Assembly (NCBI GenBank): GCA_026391735.1
Contig: JAPLDL010000013.1
Location: 62,001-126,000, forward strand
From: Bacteroidota bacterium
Lineage (GTDB): Bacteria; Bacteroidota; Bacteroidia; Bacteroidales; FEN-979
DNA length: 64,000 nucleotides
Reading direction: 5' to 3'
The notes under the pieces were generated by a model. That model worked only from the letters and a program-made list of their open reading frames with translations, searched no databases and was not told the origin of the DNA. How positions within the stretch are numbered: position 1 is the first letter of the stretch; each line of letters begins with the position of its first letter. The translations under genes and the position numbers were made by a program. Below, one piece after another: positions 2,194 through 28,715 of the stretch.

Positions 2194-3005
2194 AAAAAAT
2201 CAGGGAACAATTTATCCTCTCACTCCTTCCGGCATTACTTTTAATACATATTAATGTCATGTTTGCCCAGTCAGACAGGACTGATTTTACTATTGGTGAC
2301 AAAGTTCATATTGAATCGAAGGTTCTTAATGAACGGAAAACCATCGTTGTGATCACGCCATTCAATTACAAAGACAATCCGGACCAGAAATATCCGGTCG
2401 TTTATGTTCTGGACCCCGGGAACAACCTGTTTGGAGCATTCGGGATTGAAAATTATTATTCAGAGATGTTGAAAATAATGCCACGGTCGATTATCGTTGG
2501 CATAGTCTCGAAAGACAGGGAAAAAGACTATCTCCCTGTGCCTGATAAAGAATATCCGACTGGTGGCGGTGCAGGTAATTTCCTTCAATTTTTCAGCTCA
2601 GAGTTAGTCCCATATATTGATTCAGCCTATCCGGCGACTTCTGAGCGTTGTATAATCGGGCATTCAGCCGGGGGCTTATTTGCAGTTTACGCCCTCTTAA
2701 ACCAGCCTGAACTCTTTACTTCCTTTATCTGTATTGATCCTAGCTTATGGTACGAAAATCAATCATGCCTTAAGAGATTACCCGATTTCTTTGCAAAAAA
2801 TAAAGACATTAAGAAATCCATGTTTATTTCCTTATCCAACGAAAAAGATATGGGAGTTTTCCCATTCATGGAAGCTCTTGAAAAGTATGCGCCTGAAGGA
2901 TTCAGGTGGGATTTTGTAAGGTATAAGGATGAAACGCATAACTCTCTTGGTTTTAAAAGCATGTGCGCAGGTTTTGAAATGATCTATAAAAACTGGAAAC
3001 CTTGA
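2190..3005 (+). CDS. secreted alpha/beta-hydrolase, putative esterase (PF00756-like)
   Basis: 271 residues with a signal peptide (about 1-26, ending MFAQS). It has the alpha/beta-hydrolase layout of the esterase D/Fes family: an early strand VVYVLDPGNNLFG, the nucleophile elbow GHSAGG, the following IDPSLWYEN segment and a late His in DETHNS. These fit a Ser-Asp/Glu-His triad. Relatives hydrolyse siderophore esters, acyl-glutathione or polysaccharide acetyl/feruloyl esters; nothing here decides the substrate. It overlaps both neighbours by 4 bases, placing it in a tight four-gene run. Confidence 0.85.
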   Translation: MKKIREQFILSLLPALLLIHINVMFAQSDRTDFTIGDKVHIESKVLNERKTIVVITPFNYKDNPDQKYPVVYVLDPGNNLFGAFGIENYYSEMLKIMPRSIIVGIVSKDREKDYLPVPDKEYPTGGGAGNFLQFFSSELVPYIDSAYPATSERCIIGHSAGGLFAVYALLNQPELFTSFICIDPSLWYENQSCLKRLPDFFAKNKDIKKSMFISLSNEKDMGVFPFMEALEKYAPEGFRWDFVRYKDETHNSLGFKSMCAGFEMIYKNWKP

Positions 3006-4330
3006 AACATCAGTTAACCGGCATTGGGCTAGACTTTCCCTTTCTCCTCATCCTTTGTTTCATTACCCTTCAAAGCCATCCGCAGACACAAGTAATAATT
3101 GGTAAATCATACGAAACGATTTACCCTCTGACTCCCAATCAGACCGATGATCAGGATGAACTGCTGCCATTGGCTTCCCTGTTGAAAGACAGAAAAGTCG
3201 TAGGGATGGGTGAAGCAACGCATGGCACAAAGGAATTCTTCAACATGAAAGCCAAAATGTTCAAATTCCTGGCCACTCATTGCGGGTACCGGGTTTTTAC
3301 CATTGAAGCAACTTACGGAGGGACACTGAAAGTGAATGATTATGTTTTATACGGAAAAGGTGATGTGTTAAGTGCGATGAAGGGGATGGAATTCTGGACC
3401 TGGGATACGGAAGAAGTGAAAGACCTGATCGAATGGATGAAAAGCTACAATGAAACCAGGCCCGACAAGGAAAAACTGAAATTTTACGGTTTCGACTGCC
3501 AATCATATAAAGGCCCCGCCAATGCACTGATAGAATATGTCAAAGAGTTTGACAAACCAAATCTTGATAAGTTTGTGAAAGGCTTGTCGGTTCTGAACGA
3601 CAGCAGCTACAACTATTTTTACACCCTCAAACCCGGTAAAGCTTCTGTCAAAGGAATATCGCAGATCCATGCGATCATTTCCTTCATCAGGGAATGGTTT
3701 CGGGATAACGAAAACCTGTATGCCCCACTTAGCGGAAGGCTAAAATTTGAACTGGCGAACCATAATGTTGAATCTTTAGAACAGGTGATACTTCTTTCGT
3801 CCAGTCAACGTAAAATAGCTTACACCCGGCGTGATAGTTGTATGGCCCAAAACATTAAATGGATATCTGAACTGGAACAGGCAAAGGTCTTTGCATGGGC
3901 CCATAACAGCCATATCTGTAAAAACGCCAAATATTATTTCAACAGGTATAAAACCATGGGATGTTATCTCAATGAGATTTTCGGTGATGCTTATTATAAT
4001 ACAGGATTCGTGTTTAACCAGGGCAGCTTCCAGGCCATTCCGAAAGCCGCAGCTAAGCTGCAGGAATTCACCATAACGGTTAACAGGAAGAATACCCTTA
4101 CCAATGAACTTGCCCTGGTTGGTATTGATTCATTTTTCATCGACCTGGACAGCTCAGAAAATGCATTGTTTAAGGTTTCAAAGCAGACTTATAATATAGG
4201 AGCGCTTTATAACCCCGAACACGCCTATGCTTTCACCGAAGCAATCATCGCAAAACAACTCTACGACGGGCTTATCTTCATCAACAACACTGCATCTGCA
4301 GTGCCCGTGAAAAGAGATTCCGTCAAATAG
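3002..4330 (+). CDS. erythromycin-esterase family protein, exported
   Basis: 442 residues. The start is a TTG at 3002 whose TTGA overlaps the TGA stop of the esterase gene. No ATG before the conserved core would give a signal peptide, so TTG is the best choice. A signal-like hydrophobic stretch (residues 10-25) precedes the erythromycin-esterase fold (PF05139). Motifs include GMGEATHGTKEFF (Glu and His of the active site), the FYGFDCQS block and WAHNSHI. Some family members open macrolide lactones, but many are uncharacterised hydrolases, so resistance should not be assumed. The signal peptide is unusual for resistance-type members, which are cytoplasmic. Confidence 0.85.
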   Translation: MKHQLTGIGLDFPFLLILCFITLQSHPQTQVIIGKSYETIYPLTPNQTDDQDELLPLASLLKDRKVVGMGEATHGTKEFFNMKAKMFKFLATHCGYRVFTIEATYGGTLKVNDYVLYGKGDVLSAMKGMEFWTWDTEEVKDLIEWMKSYNETRPDKEKLKFYGFDCQSYKGPANALIEYVKEFDKPNLDKFVKGLSVLNDSSYNYFYTLKPGKASVKGISQIHAIISFIREWFRDNENLYAPLSGRLKFELANHNVESLEQVILLSSSQRKIAYTRRDSCMAQNIKWISELEQAKVFAWAHNSHICKNAKYYFNRYKTMGCYLNEIFGDAYYNTGFVFNQGSFQAIPKAAAKLQEFTITVNRKNTLTNELALVGIDSFFIDLDSSENALFKVSKQTYNIGALYNPEHAYAFTEAIIAKQLYDGLIFINNTASAVPVKRDSVK

Positions 4331-4355
4331 ATAAACACCATTAAATTTAACCGAC

Positions 4356-4955
4356 ATGCTCAGATCAATTGGTAACCAATTTAAGAGGCCCACAGGATTG
4401 TTGGGGAAGATCATATCGAAGGTGATGATGAAGGGGAATATGCCCGACTATCTTAAACTCATCCCGGAATTGGATATTAAACAACATGATATAGTACTGG
4501 AAATTGGTTATGGTCACGGACTTGGAGTGAATATGATATTATCGAAGTATGATTGTACTGTATCAGGAATTGATTTCTCGGAATTAATGTTCAAACAGGC
4601 ATCGAAAAGGAATAAGAAGTTTATCGAAAGTGGAAAGCTCGAGTTGAAGTGTGGAAATTTCCTAGAGTCAGAAATGTCGCCGGATCAGTTTGACAAGATT
4701 TTCTGCATACATGTTATTTATTTCTGGGATGATCTTGCTAAACCATTTACAAAAATAAAAACAGCGTTAAAAGAACATGGAATGTTCTGCATTTTCATGG
4801 CCAATGTTGACTTTATTAAAAAAATGAAATTCACAAAGGATGGCATTTTTAATAAATACTCAAAAGATGAGGTAGTTGATGCCTTATATAAGGTTGGTTT
4901 CAAAGAGGTAAGTTACAGCCTCAACAGCAAAGGATATATTATTAAATGCTGCTGA
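4356..4955 (+). CDS. class I SAM-dependent methyltransferase
   Basis: 199 residues. Motif I is VLEIGYGHGLGVN (glycine-rich SAM loop), followed by the acidic strand end GIDFSE, a motif IV-like FDKIFCIHVIYFWDD and a post-motif helix. The length fits a minimal Methyltransf_11/25 domain with no substrate domain, so the target is unknown. It has no signal peptide. Its last 14 bases overlap the 3' end of the convergent membrane protein gene. Confidence 0.85.
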   Translation: MLRSIGNQFKRPTGLLGKIISKVMMKGNMPDYLKLIPELDIKQHDIVLEIGYGHGLGVNMILSKYDCTVSGIDFSELMFKQASKRNKKFIESGKLELKCGNFLESEMSPDQFDKIFCIHVIYFWDDLAKPFTKIKTALKEHGMFCIFMANVDFIKKMKFTKDGIFNKYSKDEVVDALYKVGFKEVSYSLNSKGYIIKCC

Positions 4956-5553
4956 CCGGCTCTTCTTGAAGCCGTTTCAGTCTTTTCCGACGTTTAAACA
5001 CCGTTGTATAGGTTAGCCCCGCTATAATTATGACCAGGCTTAAGCCGAAGTAAACCCAGGCAGGACATTCAAACCATGAGCTTCTCTTCAACAGGCTTAA
5101 TGCTACAGAAAGGCTCATCAATGAAGCCCACACAATGGTCATTTGCCTGCAGCCATGGACGAATCCGGGTTCATGCCATTTTTCTTCAGGAAGTCCCCTA
5201 CGTGCATACTGCAATACGAATGGTTTGCCCATCAGCAGGGTGAGCCACATCACAAATGCAAGTGCCGAATTTGACAGCAGGTCCATGTATGCCGCCACCC
5301 ACATCACATGAAACAGGTTGATCGCGACTGCACAAAAGCCAAAGAAGATCAAAGTGCCCCAGCTGAGGATGAATCCCAGTTTGAGTTCGCCATAATTTAA
5401 AAGCAGGCAAGCCACAAGACTTATTATAATTGCTCTTTCCAGACTCGCAAGAGATTTTCCTGCAAGGAAAAGGAAGAGCAGCCAGGGCAGGAATCCAAGG
5501 ATTAAACCGCCAAGTTCTTTCAGATCGGGAAGTATACTTTCAGGAGTTCTCAT
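4942..5553 (-). CDS. polytopic inner-membrane protein of unknown function
   Basis: 203 residues with about six hydrophobic segments (roughly residues 15-32, 36-52, 58-85, 92-108, 133-152 and 165-185) and a basic cytoplasmic tail (KRRKRLKRLQEE). A short polar loop carries RRGLPEEKWHEPGFVHGCRQMT between the fourth and fifth segments. I do not recognise a named family; it loosely resembles small VC0807/septation-type membrane proteins. It sits directly downstream of the small secreted ORF on the same strand (7 bases apart). Confidence 0.7.
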   Translation of the reverse strand: MRTPESILPDLKELGGLILGFLPWLLFLFLAGKSLASLERAIIISLVACLLLNYGELKLGFILSWGTLIFFGFCAVAINLFHVMWVAAYMDLLSNSALAFVMWLTLLMGKPFVLQYARRGLPEEKWHEPGFVHGCRQMTIVWASLMSLSVALSLLKRSSWFECPAWVYFGLSLVIIIAGLTYTTVFKRRKRLKRLQEEPVSSI

Positions 5554-5947: not shown

Positions 5948-6589
5948 ATGCTGAAAAAAATTTCTGATCCTCCTAAAGGCGCTCAAGGGACTCCATATGA
6001 AGGCCAGGGAAAACCTGAGGTCGATATATTTTTAAGTAAGGCCAAAAAATGGCAGAAAGAATTCGAAAAATTGAGAATGATCATTCTCGATTGTGATCTT
6101 ATCGAGGAACTGAAATGGGGTGTTCCCTGTTACACTTTGCAGAATAAAAACCTGGTTTTAATGCATGGATTTAAAGAATACTGTGCCCTGTTGTTTTTTA
6201 AAGGAGCCCTGATAAAGGATCCCCATGGAATCCTGATCCGGCAAACGGAGAATTTGCAGGCATCAAGGCAGATTCGCTTCACCGGAATCCACGAAATTAT
6301 TAAACAGGAAGCTATCCTGAAAGCCTATATACGCGAAGCCATTGAATTGGAGAAAGCCGGTTTGAAAGTGGAATTAAAAAAGACCTCAGAATACCCGGTT
6401 CCTGATGAATTTCAAAAAATGCTTGATAAACTTCCTGCTTTGAAAACTGCTTTTGAGGCATTGACACCGGGACGTCAGAGAGCTTATCTTTTTTACTTTT
6501 CTCAACCCAAACAATCCAAAACCCGGGAAGCCAGGATTGAAAAATGCCTGACTCTGATTTTAAACGGGAAGGGATTGAACGACCAATGA
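5948..6589 (+). CDS. YdeI/OmdA-type protein with DUF1801 domain
   Basis: About 213 residues from the chosen ATG. The N-terminal part (about 20-130) is a DUF1801/YdhG-like domain, visible as LIEELKWGVPCYTLQNKNLVLMHGFKEYCALLFFKGALI. The C-terminal part is an OmdA/YdeI tail with ALTPGRQRAYLFYFSQPKQSKTREARIEKC. The frame opens earlier at 5882, but that ATG lies inside a -7 box and the extra residues do not look conserved. The YdeI family is linked to bacteriocin/peptide resistance in Salmonella by OmpD association; its biochemical role is unknown. A second, shorter OmdA-type protein lies at 15132. Confidence 0.85.
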   Translation: MLKKISDPPKGAQGTPYEGQGKPEVDIFLSKAKKWQKEFEKLRMIILDCDLIEELKWGVPCYTLQNKNLVLMHGFKEYCALLFFKGALIKDPHGILIRQTENLQASRQIRFTGIHEIIKQEAILKAYIREAIELEKAGLKVELKKTSEYPVPDEFQKMLDKLPALKTAFEALTPGRQRAYLFYFSQPKQSKTREARIEKCLTLILNGKGLNDQ

Positions 6590-6754
6590 AAGTTCACAAA
6601 AGTATTTAACTTTATCGGATAATAAGTCCACCCTTAATGAGCCTTTACGATCAGCTGCATCAAGCAAAAAGTGAAGAAGACGTCAAATTCCGATGAAAAC
6701 AAAGAATATATCCAAACCGTTACACATTGTAACGCTTGTAAACTTCTTGAAGCA

Positions 6755-6988
6755 ATGAAAACAATCTGGTTTAAGAAAATTGGATGGATTTACATCCCGG
6801 TTTCAGTCATAGGAATATTAATCAGCCTTTGTGTTGTCTTTTTCTGTGTTACCGTTTTTATCGCAGTTGACTGCCACTCTCATTCAGTGTCTGACACACT
6901 TTACGGGATTTTCCCGTTTTTTGTATCGGCTTTTACTATCCTGTTCTGGATCGCAACGAATACTTCAGAGCGTAAACAGGACAAATAA
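6755..6988 (+). CDS. small two-TM membrane protein
   Basis: From the internal ATG this is a 77-residue protein beginning MKTIWFKKIGWIYIPVS, with hydrophobic segments near residues 13-38 and 51-70 and the loop DCHSHSVSDTLYGIFPFF between them. The frame remains open upstream to a GTG at 6671, but the 28 extra residues are polar and begin inside the preceding intergenic DNA. The KIGWIY start and the HSHSVSDTLYGIFPFF loop recall a small conserved Bacteroidota membrane family of unknown function. The 6590-6754 gap holds nothing else I recognise. Confidence 0.65.
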   Translation: MKTIWFKKIGWIYIPVSVIGILISLCVVFFCVTVFIAVDCHSHSVSDTLYGIFPFFVSAFTILFWIATNTSERKQDK

Positions 6989-7027
6989 TTCATTGAGAGA
7001 CTTCATGTATTCTTTATAAATCCTACA

Positions 7028-7900
7028 ATGAAACAAAACATCACCCCCTGCCTCTGGTTCGACGGGAATGCGAAAGAGGCCGCAGAATTGTACACTTCCG
7101 TCTTTCCCGGCTCGGCGATAAAAAACATAAGCTACTTCGGGAAAGAGGGCTTCGAAACCCACAAACAGGAAGAGGGCAAGGTTCTCACGGTGAACTTCAC
7201 TCTCCACTCCCAACCCTTTACAATCCTCAATGGGGGGCCCATGTATAAGCTCAATCCCTCGGTTTCACTGTATGTTGCCTGCGAAAAAGCAGAGGATGTC
7301 GATTTTATTTATAATAAGCTGGCGGATGGAGGGATGGTTATGATGCCACTGGGCAGCTACAAGTGGAGCGAACGATATGCCTGGATCAGCGACCGTTTTG
7401 GAGTTTCCTGGCAAATTGCACTGGATGTCGTTACTTCGCAAAAAATCACACCCGCTTTTCTTTTCATGGGCAATCATCATCCGCAGGCCGATCAAGCCAT
7501 CGAATTCTACACATCGGTTTTCCCGGCATCTGCCACCGGCAGCATTCTAAGGTATCCCGGGGGCGGAAGTGAGCCCAAAGGATCGGTACAGCATGCCCAG
7601 TTCAGCCTCAACGGCAACAGGTTCATGATCATGGGCAATTCGATGCAGCATGCCTTTGACTTTACCGAAGCCTTCTCTTTCCAGGTCTTCTGCGACAGCC
7701 AGGAGGAGATCGATTACTTATGGGACCATCTCAGTAAAGGCGGTGCAAAACAACAATGTGGCTGGCTTAAAGACAGGTTCGGATTGTCGTGGCAGATCGT
7801 TCCTTCGGTCCTTGAAGAACTTCTGAAAGACCCTTCACACGCGGGAAAAGTGACGGAAAAGTTTCTGAAAATGAAAAAGTTCATTATCGATGAGCTTTAA
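7028..7900 (+). CDS. tandem VOC/PhnB-like glyoxalase-fold protein
   Basis: 290 residues made of two copies of a PhnB/3-demethylubiquinone-methyltransferase-like VOC domain (about 1-140 and 145-285). Each copy opens with the same signature: ITPCLWFDGNAKEAAELYTS and ITPAFLFMGN----QAIEFYTS. Each also ends in DRFGVSWQI or DRFGLSWQI. Single-domain members are about 140-160 residues, so this is an internal duplication or fusion giving both halves of a glyoxalase-type dimer in one chain. The enzymatic role is unknown. The 3' end overlaps the glycosidase gene by 11 bases. Confidence 0.87.
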   Translation: MKQNITPCLWFDGNAKEAAELYTSVFPGSAIKNISYFGKEGFETHKQEEGKVLTVNFTLHSQPFTILNGGPMYKLNPSVSLYVACEKAEDVDFIYNKLADGGMVMMPLGSYKWSERYAWISDRFGVSWQIALDVVTSQKITPAFLFMGNHHPQADQAIEFYTSVFPASATGSILRYPGGGSEPKGSVQHAQFSLNGNRFMIMGNSMQHAFDFTEAFSFQVFCDSQEEIDYLWDHLSKGGAKQQCGWLKDRFGLSWQIVPSVLEELLKDPSHAGKVTEKFLKMKKFIIDEL

Positions 7901-9989
7901 TAGAACCGTCCTGTATTTGCCGGTAATCCTGCTCTCCCTGCAATGCCTGGCTTTTTCGGGGAACGAACCCGGCCTGAAAATCCCACCCGATGCCCCGGCA
8001 AAGGTGTCATTGCGCGGTCAACACCTTGCGGTGATTTACGGTAGTGACACTATTCTCAAGGCTTTTATCATTTGCGATCCATCAGACTTTTACTTCAGGG
8101 AAGTAGTGGACAGCGCCGGTGGAAAGATCTTCCAGGCCTTTACCATCACCTCGAACGACGGAAAGCCTGTCTCCATCGAAGGAATGATAATTGCAAGTGA
8201 TCAGTCGTTCCCATGCGAAGAGAACCGGGCCATTGGCAGTACTTTTGTCAGGCATTCCGCAGGCCTCAGCCATAGTCTACTGAACAGGGCCGTGTACGAC
8301 AGGGCTGGCGACTGGTCGCTGTCGGTGGAACAGTCCCCGGTCAGGATCATACCACGGTCCTCATCCGCAAACCAGAACTTTTATATAATTTCGGTCAAAG
8401 GCCGGGAGATATGCTTTCTCTTCAAGCCCCGCTATTACCAGAAACACCGGGGGCTGCCGTATTTCGAACCCTGGCATTACAGGGTGTGGAACAAGCCTGT
8501 GGTCGGATGGTCTTCATGGTTTGCCTATTTTGATAAGGTGACTGCGGATGATGTTAAGCGAACCGCCGATGTGCTGGGTGAGGTGCTAAAGCCATACGGC
8601 CTGGAATATATCCAGATCGACGATGGTTACCAGCAGGAAACCTCCTATCCCGAGAAATGGACCGTTGCAAACAGCAAATTCCCCGAAGGACTGCCGGCAT
8701 TGTCGGCATACATCAGCTCAAAAGGACTTAAACCGGCCATCTGGACGAATGTGGCTTTTTCAGATAAAGAATGGGCTTATGCACATGCCTCCCTGTTTGT
8801 GAGAGATACCAACGGACTGCCAGTTAAAGGAAGATGGGTTGGCTATGTGATGGATGGTTCTAACCCTAATACCCTGGACCAGCTGGTAAGGCCTGTTTAC
8901 AGGCAATTCAATGAAACCGGCTGGAAATATTTCAAGCTGGATGCGCTGAGGCATCTGAGGTATGAGGGTTATAACAGCAATGCGGGATATTTTGAATTTA
9001 AAAAGACTGACCGGGTTGAAGCCTTCCGTAATGTCGTGAAGGCAGTACGTGAAGAGATCGGGAAAGATAATTTCCTGCTCGCCTGCTGGGGCATCAGGCC
9101 CGAACTTACCGGGATTGTTGACGGATGCAGGATTGGCGATGACGGTTACGGGCTGCGCACTCTAACCCAGTACAATTCATTCAATAACGTGGTGTGGAGA
9201 AACGACCCCGACCATATCGAACTGAAGCCGAAAGTCGCATACCCCGCCTGCATGGCCACTTCCATGACGGGTTCCCTGTTCATGCTCACCGACAGGCCCG
9301 AAGTTTACCGTACTCCTTACGTTGAAGCCGCTAAACGCTCAATCCCCGTGCTTTTCACGGTTCCCGGACAGATCTACGACGTAGACCCTTCTGCATCGAT
9401 GTACCTCGACAGGGTGGGTTCCGAACTAAGCGGTTCGGGAGTGAGGGTGTTTGATGCCCGCCTGAGTTCTCCTTACACCCACTTCATCCTGGAAATAAAC
9501 AAACCTTACGGAAACTGGCTGCTGCTCGGGCGCACCGATGAAAGCCGATCCTCATTCAGGTTTGAAGAACTCGGGCTGTTTCCATCGAAGGAATACCTGG
9601 TTTTCGAGTTCTGGACAAGGAAATTCCTTGGATCATTCAAAGAGGAATTCAGCCCTGGCCACATGGATACGGCATACAACTGCCAGCTGCTTTGCATCAG
9701 GGAAAAGGAGAAACATCCCCAGCTTCTTGCGACCAGCCGCCATATTTCATGCGGCGGACTGGAACTTGAAGAGTATTCATGGAAGGAGAACAGCCTTAAA
9801 GGAAGGAGCAGAATGGTTGCAGGGGACCCATACACCATATACATCTTCGAACCTGAAGGAAGTACGTTTGCAGGATTTGAGTGTAATGGCGCCATGCTTC
9901 TCAATAACACCTTCGATGGGAAAATGAGGGCGATCAGCATTCAATCCGACAGTGAAAAGGCGGTGGACTGGGAAGTCAGTTACAATTAA
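7890..9989 (+). CDS. clan GH-D glycosidase (GH36/GH27-like alpha-galactosidase)
   Basis: 699 residues with a signal peptide (about 6-23). A beta-sandwich N-domain (about 30-195) precedes a TIM barrel that opens with NKPVVGWSSWFAYFDKVT. Key motifs are YIQIDDGYQQE (243-250), the nucleophile motif KYFKLDALR (Asp351) and the acid/base region CRIGDDGYG (Asp417/418). A C-terminal beta domain follows (about 540-699). Motif order fits alpha-galactosidase/raffinose-synthase-like enzymes; the exact linkage and sugar are undecided. No SusC/SusD pair or regulator is nearby, so this is not a classical polysaccharide utilisation locus. The gene appears richer in G and C than the genes before 7 kb. Confidence 0.85.
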   Translation: MSFNRTVLYLPVILLSLQCLAFSGNEPGLKIPPDAPAKVSLRGQHLAVIYGSDTILKAFIICDPSDFYFREVVDSAGGKIFQAFTITSNDGKPVSIEGMIIASDQSFPCEENRAIGSTFVRHSAGLSHSLLNRAVYDRAGDWSLSVEQSPVRIIPRSSSANQNFYIISVKGREICFLFKPRYYQKHRGLPYFEPWHYRVWNKPVVGWSSWFAYFDKVTADDVKRTADVLGEVLKPYGLEYIQIDDGYQQETSYPEKWTVANSKFPEGLPALSAYISSKGLKPAIWTNVAFSDKEWAYAHASLFVRDTNGLPVKGRWVGYVMDGSNPNTLDQLVRPVYRQFNETGWKYFKLDALRHLRYEGYNSNAGYFEFKKTDRVEAFRNVVKAVREEIGKDNFLLACWGIRPELTGIVDGCRIGDDGYGLRTLTQYNSFNNVVWRNDPDHIELKPKVAYPACMATSMTGSLFMLTDRPEVYRTPYVEAAKRSIPVLFTVPGQIYDVDPSASMYLDRVGSELSGSGVRVFDARLSSPYTHFILEINKPYGNWLLLGRTDESRSSFRFEELGLFPSKEYLVFEFWTRKFLGSFKEEFSPGHMDTAYNCQLLCIREKEKHPQLLATSRHISCGGLELEEYSWKENSLKGRSRMVAGDPYTIYIFEPEGSTFAGFECNGAMLLNNTFDGKMRAISIQSDSEKAVDWEVSYN

Positions 9990-23853: not shown

Positions 23854-25893
23854 ATGAAAAAACAACATGTATTTCTGTTGATTACACTCCCGGTGATGGC
23901 GATGTTCCTCACTGTTTCATGTAACAGCAATAAAACAAAGAAATCCGAAATCAAAGTTCCGGCATTTGATATTGCCTCCCTTGATTCGAGCCAGAAACCC
24001 TGTATTGATTTTGATGGATTTGCCAACGGCAACTGGAAAAAACATAATCCTATTCCTTCCACTGAAAGTTCCTGGGGGTCATTTGATATCCTGGACAAAG
24101 AGAACAGGGAAGTGAAGATCAAAGGGATTATCAATGAATTGCTTACACAGGAAAACCCTGTAAAAGGCAGCGAAGCTCAGCTCATTACAGGATATTACCG
24201 CTCTTATCTTGACACTGCAACCATTACCAGGCGCGGGATCAACCCTATTATCCCTATCGCTGATAAGATCATGGCTGCAAAAAGCACGTCCGATCTTGTT
24301 GCAATTGAAGGAGAACTGGCAAAAATGAATATTGCAGGCCCATTTGAAGTGTATGTTAATGCCGATGACCGGAACAGTAAAATGAATGCCATTTTCATGG
24401 GCCAGGGCGGATTGTCGATGGGCGACCGTAATTATTACGAGAATAAGGACTCTTCCATGGTAAAGATCAGGGCTGAATTTGTAAAACTCGTTGATAATTT
24501 ATTCTCGATGGCGGGATGGAAGGTCTCCTCTGCAGGTAAGACCGTGCTGGATTTTGAAACGAAAATGGCGCTTATCCAGCTTAAAAATTTTGAGATGCGC
24601 GACCCTGTTAAAATCTATAACAAGATCCCATTTGCAGAACTGCAGAAGCTGGCTCCTGCCATAAACTGGTCCAATTATTATAAAAACTTTGGCCTTCAGG
24701 CCGACACAGTGATTGTTCAGGACAAAAACTATTTGAAGAACCTGGGATTGCTGTTCGAATCAACCCCGGTCGATGTGCTTAAAACCTATTTCCGCTGGCA
24801 GGTTCTTTTGACCTTTTCCAATCTACTGCCTTCACAATTCAATAAAGAATCATTTCATTTTTTCAGTACGGTCATGTTTGGCGTAAAAACCCAGCGTCCC
24901 CGCGAAGAAAGAGCTGTGATGAGCGTGAACCGAAGACTTGGCATGCCTTTGGGTAAACTGTATGTGGCCAAATTTTTCCCTGAATCTTCTAAGAAAAAAG
25001 TTTCGGAAATGATAGAAAATGTGCGTTCGGTATATGGCGAACGTATTGATAAACTTACCTGGATGAGCTCCTCAACCAAAGAAAAAGCAAAGAAAAAGCT
25101 GGCAGCCTTTACCTGGAAGATAGGATACCCCGATACATGGAAAGATTATTCAAGTATCGATATCCAGCCCGACAAACTCATTGAGAACAGTATCAATATC
25201 GCTCTTTGGGAACACAATGACATGATAAAAAAAGCAGGAAAACCTGTTGATAAAAAGGAATGGGATATGTCGCCTCAAACGATCAATGCATACAATAACC
25301 CTACCAATAACGAAATTGTATTTCCGGCAGCCATACTCCAGCCTCCGTTTTTCAATCCGGATGCCGATGATGCCATCAACTACGGAGCTATCATTGCTGT
25401 GATAGGGCATGAGATGACTCACGGGTTCGATGACCAGGGTGCGCAGTATGATGGGAACGGGAACCTGAGTAACTGGTGGACACCCCAGGATTCCAAAAAT
25501 TTTGTCGCTCTGGGTAAGAAGCTGGAAGATTATTTCAATGCAATGGAAGTTACCAAAGGTTTCAGAATCAATGGCAAACTAACTCTGGGCGAAAACATTG
25601 CTGATCTGGGCGGATTAACACTAGGTTATTATGCCCTTGAAAAATCCCTTACAGGGAAACAGAAACCCGGAAAGATCGACGGGTTTACATACCAGCAGCG
25701 CTTTTTCCTGGGATGGGCCCAGGTTTGGCGTGAAAACATGACCAACGAGAGCCTCATCAACCAGGTACAAACCAATGAGCACTCTCCGGCACGCTGGAGG
25801 ATCAACGCAACACTTCCATTGATGAAAGAATTTAATGATGCTTTCGGATGTAAGAGTGCCAGCGCTGATTCATTACAGATTGTGATCTGGTAA
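23854..25893 (+). CDS. pepO: M13 family zinc endopeptidase (PepO/neprilysin-like) lipoprotein
   Basis: 679 residues with a lipoprotein signal (lipobox TVSC, Cys23). It has the full M13 layout: an N-terminal helical domain with PCIDFDGFANGNWKKHNPIP, then the catalytic domain. HEMTH (519-523) lies within VIGHEMTHGFDDQGAQYDGNGNL, the third ligand Glu580 in GENIADLGG, and the C-terminal substrate-binding block NEHSPARWRIN. The size is standard. It probably degrades small peptides on the cell surface or in the periplasm. A weak -7-like TACTTTTA lies just upstream near 23830. The gene runs convergently into the B12-binding gene with only 25 bases between stops. Confidence 0.92.
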   Translation: MKKQHVFLLITLPVMAMFLTVSCNSNKTKKSEIKVPAFDIASLDSSQKPCIDFDGFANGNWKKHNPIPSTESSWGSFDILDKENREVKIKGIINELLTQENPVKGSEAQLITGYYRSYLDTATITRRGINPIIPIADKIMAAKSTSDLVAIEGELAKMNIAGPFEVYVNADDRNSKMNAIFMGQGGLSMGDRNYYENKDSSMVKIRAEFVKLVDNLFSMAGWKVSSAGKTVLDFETKMALIQLKNFEMRDPVKIYNKIPFAELQKLAPAINWSNYYKNFGLQADTVIVQDKNYLKNLGLLFESTPVDVLKTYFRWQVLLTFSNLLPSQFNKESFHFFSTVMFGVKTQRPREERAVMSVNRRLGMPLGKLYVAKFFPESSKKKVSEMIENVRSVYGERIDKLTWMSSSTKEKAKKKLAAFTWKIGYPDTWKDYSSIDIQPDKLIENSINIALWEHNDMIKKAGKPVDKKEWDMSPQTINAYNNPTNNEIVFPAAILQPPFFNPDADDAINYGAIIAVIGHEMTHGFDDQGAQYDGNGNLSNWWTPQDSKNFVALGKKLEDYFNAMEVTKGFRINGKLTLGENIADLGGLTLGYYALEKSLTGKQKPGKIDGFTYQQRFFLGWAQVWRENMTNESLINQVQTNEHSPARWRINATLPLMKEFNDAFGCKSASADSLQIVIW

Positions 25894-25918: not shown

Positions 25919-26977
25919 TCAGGCAGCCAGCAGATTATCAGCTAGCTTAATAGCATCGAGTGCATCCAGCGCAAACCCGTCGGCCCCGACTTTCTCCCAG
26001 AGGAGGTTGGCTACTTTAAACGGATAACCGCCCACCATGATTTTCAGCCCGGAGGGGATACCAGGATCGCTGCGTATCAAGCTGATCATTTCTTCAACAG
26101 CGCTTACATGAAAAGTCATGGTCGCTGAAATTGCCAGGAGTTTAGGTTTGATTTCCTTGATAAACCTAATCAATCCTGCAACAGGCATGTTTGCTCCAAG
26201 ATAATACGTGTCCCAACCATTCATTTCAAAAAAATCGGTGACAATCCTGGCTCCCATCTCATGCAGTTCTCCTGAAACACAGGTTGTGACCATCTTCCTG
26301 TCTTTCTTTTCACCGGTAAATAAAAATGGATACAGCTGAGACATGACAAGTTGGGTGGCCCCTGTGCAAAAATGCTCCTGTGCCACACTGATCCTGTTGG
26401 TCTGCCATAACCTCCCGATCTCATATTGAACGGGTTGAAATACATTAAGATAAATATCTTTAACCGGAACTCCCGATTTAACTTCATCCAGGATAAGTGA
26501 CAAGGCATTATTCCGGTTCCCCTTGAGTAAATAATTGAGGTAGTTCTGGGCCAGTGGAGTCAGAAAGTTTTCCATGGCAGGTATTGATACCTGTTGCTCT
26601 GCTGACAATAAGAGGATGACAGCCTTGTCGAGAATGGGATTGACAACGAGGTTTTCATCCTCTGTACACACCTTGTTAATCCTGGCTTTTATTAACATCA
26701 TGCTTTCTGCTACATCCTTCATTGGAACTTTAACCGAGGAAAGAAAAGTCCTGAGCCAGGAAATAAATTCCTCGAACAGTGCCGGCTGCCCGGCCCAGAC
26801 CGATTCAGCCAGGAAAGACAATATCCATGCAACATCCTTCTGAAAGTTTTCCTTCTGGTGCTCAGTGTAATTGTCTGCCATATCGGGTCGCAGAAGAAAA
26901 TGATCGGCAAGGATCAAAGCAGGAAGAGTGGATTTCAAACCCAGCAGCTTCTCATTAAGGAACATTTTCTTTTCCAT
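25919..26977 (-). CDS. B12-binding protein with Wx9EH photoreceptor signature
   Basis: 352 residues, no signal peptide. Residues 1-130 are helical and resemble the N-terminal sensory/co-antagonist helices of RsbR-type proteins, although this assignment is weak. Residues about 135-222 are the four-helix cap of B12-binding proteins. They contain W191, nine residues, then E201-H202 (LWQTNRISVAQEHF), the Wx9EH motif of CarH-type photoreceptors. Residues about 227-352 are the Rossmann-like B12 domain with SGELHEMG (lower ligand His239), SATMTFH and MVGGYPF. No MerR DNA-binding domain or methyltransferase domain is fused. A light- or cobalamin-responsive signalling role is inferred. Confidence 0.82.
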   Translation of the reverse strand: MEKKMFLNEKLLGLKSTLPALILADHFLLRPDMADNYTEHQKENFQKDVAWILSFLAESVWAGQPALFEEFISWLRTFLSSVKVPMKDVAESMMLIKARINKVCTEDENLVVNPILDKAVILLLSAEQQVSIPAMENFLTPLAQNYLNYLLKGNRNNALSLILDEVKSGVPVKDIYLNVFQPVQYEIGRLWQTNRISVAQEHFCTGATQLVMSQLYPFLFTGEKKDRKMVTTCVSGELHEMGARIVTDFFEMNGWDTYYLGANMPVAGLIRFIKEIKPKLLAISATMTFHVSAVEEMISLIRSDPGIPSGLKIMVGGYPFKVANLLWEKVGADGFALDALDAIKLADNLLAA

Positions 26978-27050: not shown

Positions 27051-28715
27051 TTATTTCACAACCTTCCCCGTCCAGGTGAAGCTTTCGCAGGTCATCTTCA
27101 ATAAATAAATACCATGGCTTTTATCTGACAAGCCATTAAGAGAAAAAACATTCTGGCCCTGCAGGCTTTTTACTGAACGTTTCATGACAGGATTGCCGGT
27201 TTGATCATACATGACCAGGTTTACCTGTTCATCACGGCTGCAAACATAGTTTACTGTAATATGATCATCAAAAGGGTTTGGATAGACCGATATATTCAAA
27301 CGCGGCGTCTCCCTGATTTTAAGAACCAGGGCAGCATTTGCAAAATCAGGGATCCCGAATCCAAGCAATGAATCAGGACTGGCAAATTGGCTGGAGGAGC
27401 GTTCGATGGCCTGGTATACTTCGAAATTGGTGACCGATGGTTTGGATTGCCATAAACAGGCAACCAGCCCGGCAATAAGTGGTGAGGAAAATGATGTCCC
27501 GCTTCCCCGGGTTACAGATCCGCTTGTAGAGGAGACTACCGTTTCAACACCCATCGCTGCGACATTCGGTTTTACCCTGCCGGAAGTGTCGACTCCCACG
27601 CTGCTGAAGTAGGCCCTGTATCCATTTGAATCCACTGCGGCAATAGCCAGCACTCCATCACCGTCGGCAGGAGCGCTCATGCAGTCCCAGCCTGAACCGC
27701 CCGAATTACCTGCACTGTTCACAACAGCGATTCCTTTGCTGGCGGCAAAATTTGCGCCTCTCGTGGCGGGAGTGGAATGACCATTCATATCGGCACAGGT
27801 ATGATTGTATTTCGGTTCGTCAAATGTTGTATACCCCAGAGATGAATTGATCACATCAGCCCCGACGCTGTCGGCAAACTCAGCTGCGGAGACCCAGTTG
27901 TATTCCTCAATGATATTCTCTGAATTGACATCTTCAGAACGAAGTAACCAGAAATTAGCTTTCGGAGCCGTGCCGACCAGCAATCCAGGGAGGTTTCCTC
28001 CCATGATTGAAAGCACGCACATACCATGGTAATACTCATTATACACATTGTTCCCGGCTAAAACGAAATCGCGGGTCCCTAGAATCTGTCCATTGGCACG
28101 CAAACTGTCAAAAGCAGGAAGCACATCGGCATTGAGGAATCCTGCATCCAGAACCGCGATCACCTTACCCTCGCCATGAAATCCAAGATTATGCAGGGCT
28201 TCTCCCCTAACCTGGTGGATCTGGGTGTAGGAGATGCCGTAATTGTATGAAGCCGGGGAGTTCACCGATTTAGCCGTAACTGACTGAACAACATCAGAAA
28301 ACCTTGACTCGATCTGGAATTTATCATCCGGCCCAGGCACTCCTTTTTTACCTCCCGTGCTTTTATACACCCTTGAAACAAAAGGCAAAGCCCTGATGGC
28401 AGCTATTACTGAGGTATCTGCTGCATAAACAGTTATCCCGTTCAGCCATTTTGTAGGGTTAAGAATTGACACACCCAAATTTTTCACCTGCTGAATATAA
28501 GAAGGATTAACAGGGAGGTCGTCTTCTACCACCGGGATGCCCTGGGCATTCCTTCTATCAATAGCACGCTGGGTCAGAAACGCCTGAGGATTATTGGTTG
28601 AATAAGGTGTCCCGTTTTTATCAGTAAAAGCGACAAAAAATTTATTCGGTGCAACCTGCCCCGAAACTGCCAGGACCATGAAAAGAAAAAATATAGTCAA
28701 TATATGGCTTCTCAT
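27051..28715 (-). CDS. T9SS-exported subtilisin-like serine protease (S8)
   Basis: 554 residues with a signal peptide (ending LAVSGQ). An N-terminal prodomain-like region (about 24-150) precedes an S8 catalytic domain. Asp190 lies in VIAVLDAGF, His230 in EYYHGMCVLSI, oxyanion Asn337 in NSAGNSGG and Ser408 in GTSFSSPLIAG. The last 80 residues form a T9SS type A sorting domain: NISVYPNPFDDHITVNY, YDQTGNPVMK, GIYLLKM, TGKVVK. It should be secreted through the type IX system and released or anchored after sorting. The start is an ATG followed by a good signal; no overlap with neighbours. Confidence 0.92.
   Translation of the reverse strand: MRSHILTIFFLFMVLAVSGQVAPNKFFVAFTDKNGTPYSTNNPQAFLTQRAIDRRNAQGIPVVEDDLPVNPSYIQQVKNLGVSILNPTKWLNGITVYAADTSVIAAIRALPFVSRVYKSTGGKKGVPGPDDKFQIESRFSDVVQSVTAKSVNSPASYNYGISYTQIHQVRGEALHNLGFHGEGKVIAVLDAGFLNADVLPAFDSLRANGQILGTRDFVLAGNNVYNEYYHGMCVLSIMGGNLPGLLVGTAPKANFWLLRSEDVNSENIIEEYNWVSAAEFADSVGADVINSSLGYTTFDEPKYNHTCADMNGHSTPATRGANFAASKGIAVVNSAGNSGGSGWDCMSAPADGDGVLAIAAVDSNGYRAYFSSVGVDTSGRVKPNVAAMGVETVVSSTSGSVTRGSGTSFSSPLIAGLVACLWQSKPSVTNFEVYQAIERSSSQFASPDSLLGFGIPDFANAALVLKIRETPRLNISVYPNPFDDHITVNYVCSRDEQVNLVMYDQTGNPVMKRSVKSLQGQNVFSLNGLSDKSHGIYLLKMTCESFTWTGKVVK

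Follow-up and report, generated by a model that had tools for sequence, protein, structure and literature searches.

What might a cobalamin-binding protein sense and signal when it carries the adenosyl-capping motif of CarH-type photoreceptors and no DNA-binding domain? The question is raised by one gene in a 64,000-nucleotide stretch of Bacteroidota DNA (contig JAPLDL010000013.1; hereafter the window). The answer that we favour, with a probability of about 0.72, is that the gene encodes a photocobilin-type light sensor, with the globin domain first and the adenosylcobalamin (AdoCbl) domain last, that would feed a histidine kinase encoded elsewhere in the genome. Photocobilins are light sensors that use AdoCbl plus biliverdin (PMC10979010). 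Comparison loci and genomes are cited below by their numbers (L and G), the genome of the window being G000.

Domain architecture and putative ligand sites of the sensor

The motif W-x9-EH occurs once in the window protein, with exactly the spacing given in the original prediction, and the lower-ligand histidine H239 lies, as predicted, in an E-L-H-x-x-G loop, here ELHEMG (Table 1). The motif arises in 135 of 20,000 shuffled versions of the protein and would on its own be weak evidence; its weight comes from its setting in a clear pair of Pfam domains (B12-binding_2, 4.2e-15; B12-binding, 1.2e-17) and from its invariance among relatives, W191, E201, H202 and H239 being identical in 92/92 aligned sequences (20 rows of A1 and 72 named loci, with at least nine rows representing the same gene under two locus identifiers).

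Table 1. Features of the sensor gene and its neighbours in the window.
Feature	Position	Strand	Basis or remark
M13 peptidase, convergent downstream neighbour	23854..25893	+	Profile scan
Globin-first photocobilin-type protein, ATG start, 352 aa	25919..26977	-	ORF call, Pfam, phmmer against PDB, model, fold comparison
Photoglobin (phycobiliprotein-like) domain, residues 1-126	26600..26977	-	PF00502, fold match, conservation of D48/W74
B12 four-helix bundle, about residues 138-220; B12 Rossmann domain, about residues 226-352		-	Pfam, model
W191-x9-E201-H202 adenosyl-capping motif	26372..26407	-	Invariant in 92/92 rows
E237-L-H239-E-M-G242 lower-ligand loop	26252..26269	-	Translation; H239 in 92/92 rows
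S8 peptidase with Por secretion tail	27051..28715	-	Same strand, 73 bases upstream of sensor gene

An AlphaFold2 model built from a 20-sequence alignment reached a mean pLDDT of 90.6 and a pTM of 0.84, and the structure aligners paired each of its domains separately. Residues 137-352 matched photocobilins best (8j2w_A, Z 26.8, rmsd 1.8, 208 residues aligned), with corrinoid proteins, AerR and CarH next (Z about 20-23); for CarH itself, the comparison originally suggested gave Z 20.8 with 5c8e and 18.4 with 3whp. In the ranking by Foldseek E-value, a Chloracidobacterium MerR-family protein came first through its B12 domain (8jbs_B, 7.8e-11) and photocobilins fifth and lower, from 4.7e-10. A phmmer search of solved structures placed 8j2x and 8j2w at the top (E 2.8e-26), with the photocobilin globin appearing as a second, weak stretch (8j2x, 11.2 bits, i-E 1.3; 8j2y, 10.0 bits, i-E 3.2), which is separate because the domain order is swapped. 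Both by sequence and by fold, the protein thus contains the AdoCbl-type four-helix bundle and Rossmann domain with W-x9-EH and E/DxH that are found in photocobilins. The predicted lack of a fused MerR domain was borne out, as none was reported by Pfam, and CarH was rejected as an assignment on this ground and on the NCBIfam CarH score (57.7 bits, cut-off 400). Pfam, phmmer, fold comparison and conservation all support the earlier view of a CarH-like AdoCbl sensor domain that is not joined to a DNA-binding one and probably has another output.

The N-terminal helical domain that had been described is real in the model, but its proposed likeness to RsbR-type co-antagonists did not hold. The profile check against RsbR families returned PF00502 (Phycobilisome) instead, on residues 35-119 (E 6.1e-9; 36.5 bits, cut-off 22.2), and an RsbR co-antagonist was rejected because neither the RsbR N-domain nor a C-terminal STAS domain matched in Pfam up to E 1. 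Residues 1-124 of the model matched allophycocyanin (9i1r_A, Z 18.2, rmsd 1.5, 123 residues aligned) and the biliverdin-binding smURFP (Z 17.6-17.7). A phycobiliprotein-like domain is therefore fused to the B12 part, as in photocobilins, on the evidence of the PF00502 score above cut-off and the 9i1r_A match.

In the photocobilin SasPcob, Asp270 and Trp296 touch biliverdin, which has no cysteine attachment to the protein, and in AbPcob, which binds biliverdin weakly, His replaces that Asp (PMC10979010). Residues D48 and W74 of the window protein align with Asp270 and Trp296, so that the biliverdin-contact pair is present, although on an alignment stretch below significance (11.2 bits, i-E 1.3). 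The register was taken from the phmmer alignments with a numbering offset of 5, fixed by W61, and was checked by the AbPcob row, which shows His opposite D48, as the paper states for Asp270. D48 and W74 are each kept in 91/92 rows, with L062 as the exception to both, while position 45 is Cys in 22 of 92 rows and Phe in the window protein. At L062 (8301-9410), D48 and W74 are replaced by Gln and His, the downstream kinase is likewise missing, and receiver-type and kinase-type genes lie divergently upstream.

Within the family of the window's genome, 8/43 genomes matched the sensor at 1e-15, six with a full-length protein and two with a short B12-only relative; across the phylum, 51/395 genomes matched, 18 of them with the globin part (a number that includes G000 and G226, whose copy is split). 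The named loci, the best 80 of 349 that were confirmed, come from Bacteroidales, Ignavibacteria, Anaerolineae, other Chloroflexi, Thiomargarita, heliobacteria, Paenibacillus, Adhaeribacter, Verrucomicrobia and others. Being the best 80 of 349, this set is biased to close relatives; its taxa are record titles as deposited, with binning taken as given, and GTDB places the Ignavibacteria loci within the phylum of the window (G258, which counts as same-phylum, appears to be the genome of L124). A separate family of short (210-270 aa) B12-only proteins with W-x9-EH was seen at L008, L009, L010, L030-L034 and L036-L040, and L011 lacks W-x9-EH. The sensor gene lies in two ORFs at L060 (8339-9402) and L113 (1712-2770), through sequencing error or decay.

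A probable histidine kinase partner and its separation from the sensor gene

A same-strand histidine-kinase gene lies directly downstream of the sensor gene in 20/20 globin-first loci L041-L060, counting L060, where the sensor is split, and L049 and L052, where the ORF caller started late and separate placement puts the kinase next to the sensor. It is missing in three globin-first cases: the window, L062 and L063. Among the best 80 of 349 named loci, the next gene is on the same strand and fits a kinase profile in 72 of the 76 that had a callable sensor and any following gene, and 54 of the sensor-kinase gaps fall between -4 and +38 nt; by comparison, 48/389 (12%) of the other same-strand neighbour pairs in these loci fit the profile, which was derived from the partners themselves. 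The four misses under this strict rule are L113 (split sensor), L126, L181 and L190, and in L113 and L126 the kinase is one ORF later. In three kinases tested with Pfam, only HisKA and HATPase types reached their cut-offs, and none did so in the first 150 residues.

The association extends across genomes. In the window's family, a kinase match below 1e-90 was obtained in six genomes, precisely those that have a full-length sensor. With the kinase of G000 as query and four candidates scored per genome, 13 of the 395 phylum genomes matched at 1e-60; 12 of these matches cover the N-domain and all 12 are in sensor-positive genomes, whereas the thirteenth, in G344, covers residues 135-398 alone. 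Six of the 18 sensor-positive phylum genomes had no match at 1e-60, four of them having a diverged adjacent kinase and two (G429 and G114) none. At L138 the sensor is naturally fused to PAS/histidine-kinase parts in two genes (2682-5282 and 5965-9810), one ending in REC-REC-Hpt. In Adhaeribacter (L137 6976-7491, L152 7017-7511 and L154 6986-7507), the partner consists of the N-domain and a coiled coil without a kinase. The output varies, since the PAS-like part, the kinase or the helix motif described below has each been lost in some lineages, the PAS-like part in most Paenibacillus; judged from this gene neighbourhood, a histidine kinase is most likely the output of the sensor.

An alignment of 30 partners has N148, N149, L151 and R156 as its invariant columns, all in the coiled coil; kinase columns could not be invariant because the kinase is missing from three of these rows. 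The corresponding motif, NN[ED][LM]x4R, was found in 65/72 partners against 3/56 further kinase-profile genes at these loci, and in 22 of the 29 partners that score below 310 on the kinase profile. It is kept in a Paenibacillus partner whose HisKA starts at residue 71 (L175) and in the three kinase-less Adhaeribacter partners, heads a GGDEF partner protein (L177) and follows immediately behind the sensor in both L138 fusions. It is absent from seven partners (L129, L138_06, L147, L168, L174, L179 and L182, two of them from Paenibacillus) and from the kinase-like genes that follow short B12-only genes at L066, L067 and L068. Shared descent of the partners accounts for part of this retention, and the NNEL-x4-R helix is perhaps a contact site for the sensor.

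The genome of the window carries its own intact kinase orthologue on a different contig from the sensor gene (G000:C18:39104-40306). This kinase shares 72% identity with its operon counterpart in G004, a genome of the same genus, and has H181, N296, N300, D328, G330 and G332 at columns that are nearly invariant in the 30-partner alignment. Its model (pLDDT 80.2, pTM 0.50) aligned over its full length with PAS/LOV histidine kinases, for example 4gcz (Z 20.7, 302 residues aligned, rmsd 14.9), and its core aligned with HK853 (Z 24.6); the PAS-like nature of the N-domain is a reading of strand order in the model rather than a solid match.

Contig 18 and the G004 operon locus run collinear as far as the kinase start, and collinearity resumes 2,175 bases later; the G004 stretch in between, with the sensor gene and a dCache gene, is replaced on contig 18 by 191 bases. 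In G007, also of the same genus, the M13 gene adjoins the S8 gene with no sensor between them, and in four other same-genus genomes with usable flanks neither a sensor nor an S8 gene lies within 1.5 kb of M13. Together, the collinearity with G004 and the arrangement in G007 indicate that the sensor-kinase pair was split in the lineage of the window. The sensor tree leaves G000 unplaced and the kinase tree groups it with its family; the sensor is closer to that of L111 than to that of G004 (74.4% against 70.8% identity), and for the kinase the order is reversed (58.2% against 72.0%). The split may have come about either because the sensor gene moved or because it was lost and later re-acquired. 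No mobile-element marks were evident at the insertion by eye or by short blastn, and its GC content is 45.2%, compared with 44.2% for the window. No response regulator adjoins the kinase within 19.5 kb, save a response-regulator-type ORF about 8 kb off (L091 406-1101).

With the kinase gene away from the sensor gene, the pair would act in trans. In the dark, AdoCbl would be bound base-off/His-on, with H239 beneath and the adenosyl group capped by W191, E201 and H202, and a head-to-tail dimer would be held. Green light, and also red light if a bilin fills the globin pocket around D48 and W74, would cleave the Co-C bond, which would loosen the dimer and alter the contact of the sensor with its partner. 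That partner would be a soluble histidine kinase composed of a PAS-like N-domain, a coiled coil, HisKA and HATPase, touched perhaps at the NNEL-x4-R helix. We infer AdoCbl binding, photochemistry and dimer change by homology with the characterised photocobilins, and kinase control, the docking helix and the direction of the effect from genomics.

Possible pocket ligands and alternative readings

Canonical haem oxygenase (PF01126) was found neither in the genome of the window nor in any of the 43 family genomes. It is present in 38/395 phylum genomes and in 0/18 of those with a globin-first protein, where about 1.7 would be expected, a deficit that is not significant. Among the genomes of named relatives (50 of the best 80 of 349 loci were asked and 48 genomes covered), nine contain it, namely seven of Paenibacillus and those of L133 and L136, and 39/48 do not. 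The radical-SAM haem-opening family HutW exceeded its cut-off in 0/34 genomes; TIGR04107 matched in 33/34, all but the window's own, each time below cut-off, and we read these matches as HemN/HemW relatives. An anaerobic bilin route through HutW/ChuW was therefore dropped. The bilin-site residues are kept despite the lack of a detected PF01126 in, among others, three heliobacteria (L141, L142 and L144) and Bacteroidales. A bilin may come from outside or from an enzyme that PF01126 does not cover, or the pocket may hold another ligand; which linear tetrapyrrole, if any, occupies it is the question that these kept residues raise. At L047 (10615-15401), a haem-synthesis cluster (uroporphyrinogen decarboxylase, HemN-type, ferrochelatase and amine-oxidase-type genes) lies closely upstream of the sensor-kinase genes, and L060 seems to have genes of the same clusters. 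For the cobalamin side, an ATP:cobalamin adenosyltransferase (PF01923) is present in the genome of the window.

These supply data bear most directly on the possibility that the protein senses light through AdoCbl alone, with the globin serving for structure or docking and carrying no bilin, an idea put forward for AbDPcob, which binds biliverdin weakly. The oxygenase and HutW counts speak for it, and we regard it as a substantial possibility at somewhat less than even odds; yet D48 and W74 are retained almost throughout, whereas the weak binder AbPcob has lost the Asp (PMC10979010), the oxygenase deficit among the 18 phylum genomes lacks significance, and external or non-PF01126 sources would leave no trace in such counts. 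That AdoCbl occupancy rather than photolysis is the input to the kinase is mainly a logical alternative, given that B12 is also bound by this fold where a protein does not sense light. We consider it unlikely in view of the fused phycobiliprotein-like domain and of the universally conserved adenosyl-capping motif, which is missing from MetH according to PMC8156234.

A partner switch, the output originally favoured, would make the protein an RsbR-type co-antagonist with B12 input. The RsbR N-domain and photoglobins are related non-haem globins (PMC10151467), and STAS, SpoIIE and PP2C proteins are listed as possible SasPcob partners by Zhang 2024 (PMC10979010), but with no RsbR family matching up to E 1 and a histidine kinase as the conserved genomic partner, this output is very improbable. 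Still harder to credit is a corrinoid subunit of a methyltransferase, the homology that the original prediction had named as its refutation. The NCBIfam MtgC and MtbC models do match (E 3.7e-19 and 7.6e-18), but far under their cut-offs (69.1 of 370 and 64.8 of 350 bits); corrinoid-subunit models as a whole gave at most 69.1 bits against cut-offs of at least 215.3, so that MtaC, MtbC and MtgC were rejected as below the curated family thresholds. The retained W-x9-EH and the lack of a methyltransferase among six neighbouring proteins scanned also argue against this role.

Kai loci and relation to known sensors

KaiB and/or KaiC homologues lie within the flanks of seven of the best 80 of 349 named loci (L113, L114, L135, L150, where the sensor ORF was not called, L154, L155 and L156). 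In three of these (L114 9-4836, L135 3010-7941 and L155 5974-10864), the sensor and kinase genes precede, on one strand, those for the receiver, KaiB and KaiC, and another kinase-profile gene comes next; the sensor-kinase-receiver-kaiB-kaiC order is common to Bacteroidetes, Anaerolineae and Ignavibacteriales. L113 resembles a decayed copy of this cluster with a shortened receiver. KaiB also adjoins the sensor-kinase pair in G226 and G415, and in G009 it shares the contig at a distance of about 22 kb; overall it was found in 6/37 same-phylum genomes tested and was not found in the window's own genome, which is 80% complete.

Synechocystis KaiA3 combines a receiver with a KaiA-like domain, a fold common to RsbU, and has orthologues in Chloroflexus and others (PMC11372060). 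The C-terminal part of the receiver matched KaiA below threshold (18.1 bits, cut-off 22.2) at L041, which is on the same contig as L114, and RsbU_N below threshold (16.2 of 25.5) at L135; the L155 receiver matched neither. In Rhodobacter, a kinase is already located inside the kaiBC operon (PMC5520375), so the link between the sensor and kai may be indirect. A literature search by titles and the beginnings of abstracts returned nothing on a globin-B12 sensor adjoining kaiBC. As a tentative proposal, which we think possible but doubtful, globin-first photocobilins would be a trans-acting input for signalling enzymes through the portable NNEL-x4-R helix, and in L114, L135 and L155 the pair would phosphorylate a perhaps KaiA3-like receiver in the light and so set the Kai timer.

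Photoglobins, reportedly described by Schneider et al. 2022, are said to be globin-B12 fusions associated with signal-transduction genes, and the kinase association may thus be partly in print already. The solved photocobilins SasPcob (8j2w, 8j2x) and AbPcob (8j2y) share with the window protein an AdoCbl domain with W-x9-EH, the lower-ligand His, a phycobiliprotein-like globin and a stand-alone architecture, and SasPcob also has, in a weak alignment, Asp and Trp at the biliverdin-contact positions (PMC10979010). In these structures, however, the B12 domain comes first and the globin last, the reverse of the window protein. The globin-first order is not new, because Zhang 2024 already mentions putative photocobilins predicted with AdoCbl domains at either end; in the available text of that paper it comes without experimental characterisation, and the function of stand-alone photocobilins is described as less clear (PMC10979010). 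CarH and LitR have the same AdoCbl domain with W-x9-EH and a MerR DNA-binding domain where the window protein has its globin. The bilin-binding globins BBAG-2 (Rockwell et al. 2023, PMC10151467) belong to the same globin lineage as photoglobins, to which the RsbR N-domain is an outgroup; they bind biliverdin and have B12-protein partners but, unlike the window protein, they occur as polypeptides apart from those partners, in association with haem oxygenase.

Should the link to kai prove functional, Kai systems beyond cyanobacteria would have a photoreceptor input. Genome comparison gives globin-first photocobilins a specific partner, a histidine kinase with a candidate contact helix, represented here by one gene on another contig, and with this partner named a clean in vitro test of sensor plus kinase with light on and off becomes possible.
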